From the NCBI RefSeq assembly GCF_000017505.1, contig NC_009675.1:434001-498000 (forward strand): DNA of 64,000 nucleotides, read 5' to 3'. Numbering within the stretch: position 1 is the stretch's first letter; each line of letters opens with the position of its first letter. The notes beneath the pieces are model-generated. The model was not told where the DNA came from and did no database searches. It was given only the letters and a program-made list of their open reading frames with translations. Source of the stretch: Anaeromyxobacter sp. Fw109-5 (GTDB taxonomy: Bacteria > Myxococcota > Myxococcia > Myxococcales > Anaeromyxobacteraceae). Shown here piece after piece: positions 30,664-32,741 of the stretch. The position numbers and the translations under genes are program-made.

Positions 30664-31992
30664 ATGCGACCGCTCGCCCAAGCCGCCGCCCTCGCCGCCG
30701 CGCTCGCCCTCGCCGGGCCGACCGCCGTGGCCGCGGCGCCCAGGAGCCCGCCCGGCCAGTTCATCGAGGACGACTACGATCGCGCCCGCGCCGACGCGCG
30801 CGCGCGCGGCGTGCCGCTCGTGGTGGACGTCTGGGCCCCCTGGTGACCCACCTGCCGCTTCATGCGGGCCTACGTCCTCCCGGACGAGAGGCTCCGGAAG
30901 CTCGCCGGACGGTTCGTCTGGCTCGACATCGACACCGAGAAGCCGAGGAACGCGGCGTTCGTGGAGCGGTTCCCGATCGACGCCTGGCCCAGCATCCTGA
31001 TCGTGAACCCGGAGGACGAGCGGGTGCTCGTTCGCTGGGCGGGCACCGCGACCGCCGAGCAGATCGAGCGGCTCGCCCTCGACGGTGAGCGCGCCCTGCG
31101 CGCGGGGAAGGCGTCGCGCGCGGAGGAGGCGCTCGCGCGCGCCGACCGGCTCCTCGGAGAGCGCCGCCACGCCGAGGCCGCGGCGGCGTTCCAGGAGGCC
31201 CTCGCGGCCGGCGGCCCGCGCTTCGCGGCGCGCGAGCGCGCGTCGGAGGCGGCGGTCCAGTCGCTCGGGCTGGCGGGCGCGGCGACGGAGTGCGCCGCCA
31301 CGGCGCAGAAGCTCCTCCCCTCGCTCGGCGGGGCGAGCGCGGCGCGGGTCGCGGCGCAGGGGATCTCCTGCGCCCTCGAGCAGGAGGAGGTCGCGGCGCG
31401 CCGGTCCGCGGTCGCGGCGCTCGAGCCGCGCGCGCGAGGCCTGCTCGACGACCGCCGGGTGCTCGCCGACGATCGCTCCTGGCTCTACGACGTGCTGTCC
31501 TCGGCGCGGTCCGAGGCGGGCGACGACGCCGGCGCGAAGGCGCTCGCCCGGCGCTGGCTCGCCTTCCTCGAGCGGGAGGCGGCGCGGGCGAAGACGCCGC
31601 TCGCGCGGTCCGCGTTCGACGGGCAGCGGCTGCAGGCGGCCCTTCGCAGCGGCGAGCCCGCGCGGGCGCTGCCCGCGCTCCTCGCGTCCGAGCGCGATCT
31701 GCCGCACGAGTACGTTCCCCCGACGAACCTCGGCGTCCTCTACCTCGCCCTCGACCGCCCCGCGGAGGCGCTCGCCGCCGCCGACCGCGCGCTCGCGCTC
31801 GCCGAGGGGCCGCGGCGGATCCGTGTGCTCGTGCTCCGCGCCGAGGCGCAGGCGAAGGCCGGCGACGGCGCGGGAGCGCGCGCGACGCTCGAGCGCGCCG
31901 TCCAGGAGGGGGAGGCGTTGCCGGAGGCGGCCCGGCCGCGCGGCTACCTGCGCAAGGCGAAGAAGCTGCTCGGCGAGCTCCGCGCGTCCTGA
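30664..31992 (+). CDS. periplasmic thioredoxin-TPR protein, probable selenoprotein (UPTC redox site)
   Basis: 442 residues if the in-frame TGA at 30844 is read as selenocysteine (residue 61). Residues 1-25 are a signal peptide; FIEDDYDRARADARARGVPLVVDVWAPW leads into U61-P-T-C64, then RFMRAYVL and the rest of a DsbD-gamma/Thioredoxin_7 fold (FVWLDIDTEK, FPIDAWPSILIV). The remainder is a TPR-like helical domain. TGA stands exactly where family members have the nucleophilic Cys of WCxxC, the frame is unbroken on both sides, and codon use stays normal. Known selenoproteins of this UxxC type exist. A plain TGC-to-TGA mutation is the alternative. Hairpins behind TGA are weak SECIS candidates. Confidence 0.75.
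30844..30846 (+). other. in-frame TGA, candidate selenocysteine codon
   Basis: TGA interrupts one continuous frame (30664-31992) between TGG and CCC-ACC-TGC. Read as Sec it completes the thioredoxin redox motif W-U-P-T-C. Recoding would need SelB, tRNA-Sec and SelD, none of which is in this window. Confidence 0.7.
30855..30886 (+). promoter_or_regulatory. possible bacterial SECIS hairpin(s)
   Basis: Two small stems follow the TGA: CCGC-TTCAT-GCGG (30855-30867) and CGTCC-TCCC-GGACG (30873-30886). The second lies 27-40 bases after TGA, within the range seen for bacterial SECIS elements; the first is closer than usual. Neither loop begins with the G expected for SelB binding, so the call is weak. 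Confidence 0.3.
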
Positions 31993-32035: not shown

Positions 32036-32569
32036 TCAGCGGCAAGGATAGAGGCTCTCGGTGAACCACCAGCGCCCGTCGCGCCGCTCGAAGCAGAGGG
32101 GGGCCCCCGGCGTGCCGAGGCCGGGCGCGCGGTAGTCGACGCAGGGCAGCCCCACCGCGCCGGCGGCGGGGTCCCTGCGGAAGGCCACCAGCACCGCCAC
32201 CTCGCTCGCCTCGCGGAAGAGCGCGCGCAGCGAGCGGGCGACGCCCGGTGAGGGCACGTGGCCGGGGCCGCCGAAGAGCACCCCGTGTAGCCAGCTCGTC
32301 TCGGAGCGCAGCTCGCGCTCGACGCGCTCGCGCGGCACCACCCGGGGCCCGCAGCGCAGCCCTCCGGCCGGCACGCGTGCGACGATCGTCGCCACGTCCT
32401 CCGCCTCGATGGCGCGCTGCAGCTCCCCTGCGAGCTGGATGAGCTCGCGCGCGATCCGATCGCGGCGCGCCTCGACGGAGGGGGGCGTCGGCTTCTCGGC
32501 GGGCGCCGCGGGCGCAGCGGGCGCGGGCGCCGCGAGCGCCGCGAGGAGGAGGGGGACGAGCGCACGCAC
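32036..32569 (-). CDS. secreted hypothetical protein with conserved cysteines
   Basis: 177 residues from a GTG start giving a signal peptide (RALVPLLLAALAAPAPAAPA). The mature part has a helical stretch (RDRIARELIQLAGELQRAIEAEDV) and a later domain with LRCGPRVVP, GLPCVDYR, LCFERRDGRWWFTESLYPC: four cysteines that could form two disulfides. The end resembles small periplasmic proteins that sense damage or ligand, but I do not recognise the family. An open frame continues upstream through the hexamer array as (Arg-Pro)n; it was rejected as the start because the signal peptide would be internal. Confidence 0.65.
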   Translation of the reverse strand: MRALVPLLLAALAAPAPAAPAAPAEKPTPPSVEARRDRIARELIQLAGELQRAIEAEDVATIVARVPAGGLRCGPRVVPRERVERELRSETSWLHGVLFGGPGHVPSPGVARSLRALFREASEVAVLVAFRRDPAAGAVGLPCVDYRAPGLGTPGAPLCFERRDGRWWFTESLYPCR

Positions 32570-32640
32570 CGCGGGAGACCGTAGGCGAGGGCGGGGGATG
32601 GAGCAACGGGAGTCCGGGGGCGTTCGGCCGGGGTTGCTCA

Positions 32641-32721
32641 GTCGAGGTCGAGGTCGGGGTCGGGGTCGGGGTCGCGGTCGAGGTCGGGGTCGCGGTCGGG
32701 GTCGGGGTCGGGGTCGCGGTC
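32641..32721. repeat. hexamer array (GGGGTC / GAGGTC / GCGGTC)n
   Basis: About 13-14 tandem hexamers on the plus strand with the third base varying between G, A and C. On the far side (32725-32740, minus strand) lies GATGTGACGAATGA, a 14-base word also found beside the array at 34601. Confidence 0.9.
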
Positions 32722-32741
32722 TCTTCATTCGTCACATCCCA

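Follow-up and report, generated by a model that had tools for sequence, protein, structure and literature searches.

The gene at positions 30664-31992 of the window, which is the whole stretch of 64,000 nucleotides analysed from Anaeromyxobacter sp. Fw109-5, very probably encodes a selenoprotein, in which the in-frame UGA at codon 61 would be read as selenocysteine (Sec). This assignment draws on comparison of the gene with its relatives, on the Sec machinery of the genome and on the structure of the RNA after the UGA.

Reading frame and features

The original prediction had described one frame broken only by a TGA at 30844, with a signal peptide upstream, a Thioredoxin_7-type fold around the TGA and TPR-like helices downstream. 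Translation with TGA as U agreed with this description. A single plus-strand frame (30664-31992) contains one internal TGA at 30844-30846 (codon 61) and closes with a terminal TGA at 31990-31992, giving a read-through product of 442 residues. A signal peptide comes first in this product, then the Thioredoxin_7 domain, which contains WAPW-U-PTC, and last a TPR solenoid. The sequence around the predicted Sec61 is VVDVWAPW-U-PTCRFMRAYV. The features are as follows, with their basis in brackets.

30664..31992, + strand: coding sequence of the putative Trx-TPR selenoprotein, 442 aa, with predicted Sec61 (translation; orthologues 80-82 % identical with the same TGA)
30664..30741, + strand: signal peptide, about residues 1-26 (read by eye from the sequence and 50 homologue N-termini; low-confidence N-terminus of the model)
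30763..31101, + strand: thioredoxin domain, residues 34-146, nearest to Thioredoxin_7/DsbD-gamma (Pfam PF13899; model; VIA-align)
30844..30846, + strand: in-frame TGA for the predicted Sec61 that opens the U-x-x-C active site (27 genomes have TGA here; the other copies examined have Cys)
30853..30855, + strand: resolving Cys64 of UxxC, invariant (alignment)
30857..30901, + strand: SECIS-like hairpin within the coding part of the transcript, from UGA+13 to +57 (folds of Sec copies; synonymous shuffles; pair counts)
30988..30990, + strand: Pro109, expected cis-Pro of thioredoxin folds, invariant (alignment)
31111..31986, + strand: TPR-like helical solenoid, residues 150-441 (model; structural matches; Pfam TPR models in most homologues)
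31291..31293, + strand: invariant Cys210 of the TPR part (alignment; model helix 207-220)
31369..31371, + strand: invariant Cys236 of the TPR part (alignment; model helix 223-238)

Domain architecture and predicted structure

The thioredoxin part was matched by Thioredoxin_7 (PF13899) at 43.6 bits over residues 35-116, against a Pfam cut-off of 27, and was also above the cut-off for Thioredoxin_2 (PF13098) and Thioredoxin (PF00085; 28.4 bits versus 23.5). The C-terminal end was matched by TPR models, each individually below the Pfam cut-off, and these models recur in most homologues. An AlphaFold2 model of the read-through product, built from an input alignment of five orthologues, had a mean pLDDT of 88.9 and showed a thioredoxin fold at about residues 34-146 followed by a helical solenoid at about 152-441, where pLDDT was mostly above 90. 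VIA-align matched residues 30-145 to thioredoxins (Z about 14-15), and the best structural matches, over residues 149-442, were TPR superhelices (Z up to 17, for LGN).

In an alignment of 13 diverse members, Cys64, Pro109, both WAPW tryptophans, Cys210 and Cys236 were invariant. The retention of Cys64 had been part of the original prediction, and together with the thioredoxin fold, the UxxC motif and the conserved proline (Pro109) it gives the protein the set of features expected of a UxxC thioredoxin. Cys210 and Cys236 lie on adjoining helices of the model (207-220 and 223-238), and since these helices neighbour each other a structural disulfide between the two residues is likely. Nearly all N-termini of the family, as read by eye in 50 homologues, carry a signal peptide or a lipobox, the latter replacing the signal peptide in many homologues of the f6 family (for example LLLLGLVAC-T).

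Selenocysteine and cysteine among the relatives

A homologue was found in 124 of the 145 genomes of the order. A TGA at exactly codon 61 was present in 27 genomes from 13 genera and 4 families. The family of the window genome supplies 19 of these (6 genera) and the f6 family another 6 (5 genera), while f5 and f7 contribute a single genome each; orthologues 80-82 % identical to the window protein share the TGA. Every non-TGA copy examined had Cys at the homologous codon (23 copies in one set and 40 distinct copies in a larger one), and neither Trp nor any other residue was seen there among the homologues examined. The relatives thus bear out the proposal that Sec stands in place of the redox Cys of the motif, and its recurrence at this same codon across 27 genomes shows that the TGA does not stand there by chance, as the earlier argument had held. 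In a phylum-wide profile search, 134 of 195 genomes had a member of the family, the majority of them inside the order; the sole outside member examined by sequence (G162) reads WATWCHTC.

On the IQ-TREE protein tree, the Sec/Cys label requires five changes, four of which are forced by starred branches, and one Sec copy (L053) is placed amid the Cys copies of its own genus, g16. Values of dN/dS after the UGA were below 1 in all pairs with a value (0.13-0.50), and those over the 28 codons before the UGA were noisy (0.11-0.84). On both sides of the TGA the protein is conserved in the alignment: DD and WAPW ahead of it are invariant, and the fold that follows is preserved.

Several individual genomes depart from the general pattern. 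Two fairly complete genomes of the same genus and family as the window genome (G016 and G022) have no family match, through either loss or an assembly gap. In one copy (L064, in the MAG G024), another in-frame TGA follows the redox codon at a distance of about 110 codons; this could be a MAG error, a frameshift or a sign of a pseudogene. In the f6 family, several genomes (G101, G110 and G113; g33) carry up to four uninterrupted Trx-TPR paralogues, two of them in tandem.

RNA structure after the UGA

The structure shared among the Sec copies spans UGA+13 to +57; in the window gene its outer stem is GCUUC/GAAGC and its apical stem CGUC/GACG. Folds of 60 nt from the Sec copies had energies of -21 to -33 kcal/mol, and in L001 the apical loop begins 31 nt past the UGA. 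Synonymous shuffles were performed over 60 nt (20 codons) starting at the UGA, with amino acids and gene codon usage fixed. The mean z was -1.99 for Sec copies (n=27) and -0.29 for Cys copies (n=23), with a Mann-Whitney p of 8e-7 that overstates independence because the Sec copies are phylogenetically related. With more Cys copies included, the means were -2.01 (n=26) and -0.02 (n=40), every Sec copy having a z of -0.69 or lower (n=26); the sign of z was shared by 13 of 13 Sec genera. Of the four spans tried, that of 20 codons had the strongest signal, those of 16, 18 and 22 codons being weaker with the same sign; the peak comes when the span just takes in codons 18-19, where the outer stem closes. 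These results show that the RNA right after the UGA has been selected for structure in the Sec copies and not in the Cys copies.

In pair counts, the outer and apical stems pair in 89 % of cells, a figure that falls to 27-48 % once the partner is slid; few double-sided changes were seen, 6 cells in 2 pairs. At Val71, all 27 Sec copies use the codon GUC, as do 16 of the 23 Cys copies. RNAalifold on the gapless alignment gave a weak and short consensus owing to register shifts of the outer stem from family to family, and single-sequence folds with synonymous shuffles were more telling.

The bSECIS model given in a review (PMC13188914) is a stem-loop just past the UGA with a spacing of 16-37 nt, a stem of 4-16 bp, an MFE of -7.5 or lower and a G among the first two loop bases, and the same review states that some putative bacterial SECIS elements do not conform to it. 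The spacing, stem and energy of the Trx-TPR hairpin lie within these ranges. A hairpin obeying the G rule was sought in the 27 Sec copies and was absent from 15, including that of the window, and weak in the rest. Holding the G and U of the Val71 codon unpaired came at an energy cost and yielded no canonical SECIS. The Trx-TPR hairpin is therefore not a canonical bacterial SECIS.

Cys copies with z below about -1 belong mostly to g16 and g21, two genera in which Sec copies occur as well, the exceptions being L071 of g40 and L120 of g19. Among the copies from genera with Sec members is L106, which has a TGT codon, retains a Sec-type hairpin fold and comes from a complete myxobacterial genome (G076) with no selA, no selB and a selD without TGA. 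We infer recent Sec-to-Cys replacement that leaves a SECIS remnant, the direction of change included. The genome G076 is a candidate for a lineage that has naturally lost the Sec trait and still carries such a remnant.

Selenocysteine machinery and decoding of the UGA

The presence of Sec genes in the same genome had been put forward as a check on the prediction, and all four components were present. The window genome, a single contig of 5.28 Mb, encodes selA (545 bits), selB (325 bits, full length) and selD (397 bits), and has a tRNA-Sec (selC; 75 bits) with anticodon tca (UCA). The selD gene itself (L140, G000:C1:4028582-4029508, minus strand) contains an in-frame TGA and a canonical bSECIS (8 bp, loop GUG, spacing 33) that obeys the G rule, while selD of three relatives (G078, G137 and G076) lacks the TGA. 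Because selD has both the TGA and the canonical SECIS, Sec decoding of UGA in this genome is supported independently of the Trx-TPR gene. It is predicted that SelB would deliver Sec-tRNA-Sec at UGA61, aided by the hairpin.

Among the 27 Sec genomes, selA was present in all, and selB was absent from three (G024, G031 and G032), which are MAGs of 79-81 % completeness. Six genomes had a homologue but no selA (G002, G009, G049, G053, G076 and G091), and all their copies were uninterrupted. This co-occurrence of TGA and selA is consistent with Sec decoding, but taken alone it is weak evidence, since selA is present in most genomes of the order.

Two other readings of the UGA were weighed. The first, that UGA61 is read otherwise, by Trp misreading or programmed readthrough, and yields a protein without Sec, draws on the non-canonical form of the hairpin. 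It is very unlikely, given that the homologues have Cys at codon 61 and never Trp or another residue, that Sec copies are restricted to genomes with selA, and that TGA serves as an ordinary stop at the end of the Trx-TPR gene itself. The second, that the TGA is a real stop arising from a strain-specific nonsense mutation, a sequencing error or an arrangement of two products with re-initiation at the ATG just past it (30862), is rejected on the relatives and has a negligible probability. Although this genome does use TGA as an ordinary stop, the identical TGA is found at codon 61 in 27 genomes, the Cys/TGA exchange is confined to that codon, the invariant DD/WAPW upstream and the fold downstream are both kept, and Met67 at that ATG belongs to the conserved thioredoxin helix CRFMRAYV.

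Genomic neighbourhood

In the Anaeromyxobacter family, a DUF4442 protein and an RlmL-type methyltransferase are repeatedly encoded close to the Trx-TPR gene, and other families have different neighbours beside it; no functional partner was suggested by the conserved neighbours. A 230-aa protein without a Pfam match (window 32036-32728, minus strand) is a conserved neighbour of the Trx-TPR gene in Anaeromyxobacter. It begins with ~30 residues of arginine-proline dipeptide repeat, and its true start may therefore be further in. Rfam and tRNA scans across the whole window gave no matches, and a promoter and terminator scan found nothing.

Predicted function and comparison with known systems

With moderate confidence, we regard the protein as a thiol-disulfide oxidoreductase of the periplasm whose TPR arm has a binding role. 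By sequence, the thioredoxin domain is nearest to DsbD-gamma and thioredoxins. The protein would be exported, its Sec61-Cys64 pair would exchange disulfides with substrates in the manner of DsbD-gamma or thioredoxin, and the TPR solenoid would bind a substrate or partner. The Sec61-Cys64 pair may be re-reduced via the periplasmic DsbD route, the full Cys DsbD encoded in the genome being a possible electron source.

A rival on function, which leaves the Sec assignment unchanged, is that the protein is a periplasmic selenium-dependent chaperedoxin, a CnoX-like holdase whose TPR arm would hold unfolded exported proteins while the UxxC motif protects or repairs client cysteines under oxidative stress. 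The order of a thioredoxin domain at the N-terminus and TPR at the C-terminus is that of E. coli CnoX/YbbN (3qou, Foldseek rank 13), and CnoX proteins unite holdase and redox activity (PMC8129009). However, CnoX chaperedoxins are cytoplasmic and work with GroEL/ES (PMC8129009), whereas the Trx-TPR family has export signals; CnoX/YbbN also has SxxC or CxxC and a different TPR arrangement, and overall superposition on 3qou was poor (TM 0.19 and 0.28). No CnoX-type family, and no CnoX/YbbN model or chain, was among the NCBIfam, Pfam and other sequence matches listed for the window protein. The chaperedoxin reading is rather unlikely.

Other known systems share parts of the architecture of the proposed oxidoreductase. 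DsbD gamma (PF13899; 2fwe, 1uc7), among the nearest sequence relatives, is periplasmic and CxxC, but sits after a membrane domain, whereas the thioredoxin domain in the window protein has none and is paired with TPR. The Trx7/PDZ (seleno)protein NF041199 likewise has Thioredoxin_7 followed by a protein-binding module and is a selenoprotein, but has CxxU (PMC13188914) and PDZ in contrast to UxxC and TPR here; at 14 bits against a cut-off of 300, the window protein is not a member. The TsoB rhodanese/DsbD fusion-like selenoprotein NF045694 also places a DsbD-like thioredoxin domain in a selenoprotein and differs in architecture (22.5 bits versus a cut-off of 805). The catalogued selenoprotein thioredoxin (Trx, PF00085, UxxC) has the same fold, Sec first in UxxC and both Sec and Cys homologues, whereas the window protein is predicted to be exported, is nearest to Thioredoxin_7 and has an extra TPR domain of ~290 residues. 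The window protein is not a member of the single-domain thioredoxin equivalog TIGR01068 (27.1 bits versus a cut-off of 96.8).

Novelty and significance

The protein had been proposed as a new selenoprotein, and this stood in part. UxxC thioredoxin selenoproteins are already catalogued, and a 2006 survey credits Anaeromyxobacter dehalogenans with 11 selenoproteins, two of them under the entry 'thioredoxin (2)', in a table without sequences (PMC1794560). In a close relative (G014), the orthologue is the only in-frame-TGA match among the Pfam Thioredoxin and Thioredoxin_7 matches, and for this reason the gene was probably counted as one of those two 'thioredoxin' entries, with no description of the TPR part. 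Nothing on the protein was found in the literature beyond the 2006 count. The terms TPR and Myxococc are absent from the 2026 (PMC13188914) and 2022 (PMC9312934) inventories, the family was not found in the available text of either, and the window protein scores below the cut-off of every NCBIfam model. The novelty is thus moderate, as far as these sources extend, in that the UxxC type is known and the exported Trx-TPR architecture is new among known selenoproteins.

With the Sec reading, a gene that annotation would otherwise cut short or divide at the TGA is put right, and the known selenoproteins gain an exported Trx-TPR architecture. As a tentative overall picture, less likely than not, the protein may be a selenium-dependent periplasmic folding factor of myxobacteria, a thioredoxin whose TPR arm binds clients; its non-canonical SECIS would be read by the same SelB that reads canonical ones, and repeated Sec-to-Cys changes would leave a hairpin remnant. 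The Trx-TPR hairpin breaks a bSECIS rule that selD of the same genome obeys, and therefore offers a test of what SelB recognises. Close Sec and Cys orthologues, even within one genus, together with a genome without Sec machinery, would make the cost and benefit of selenium testable in one enzyme.
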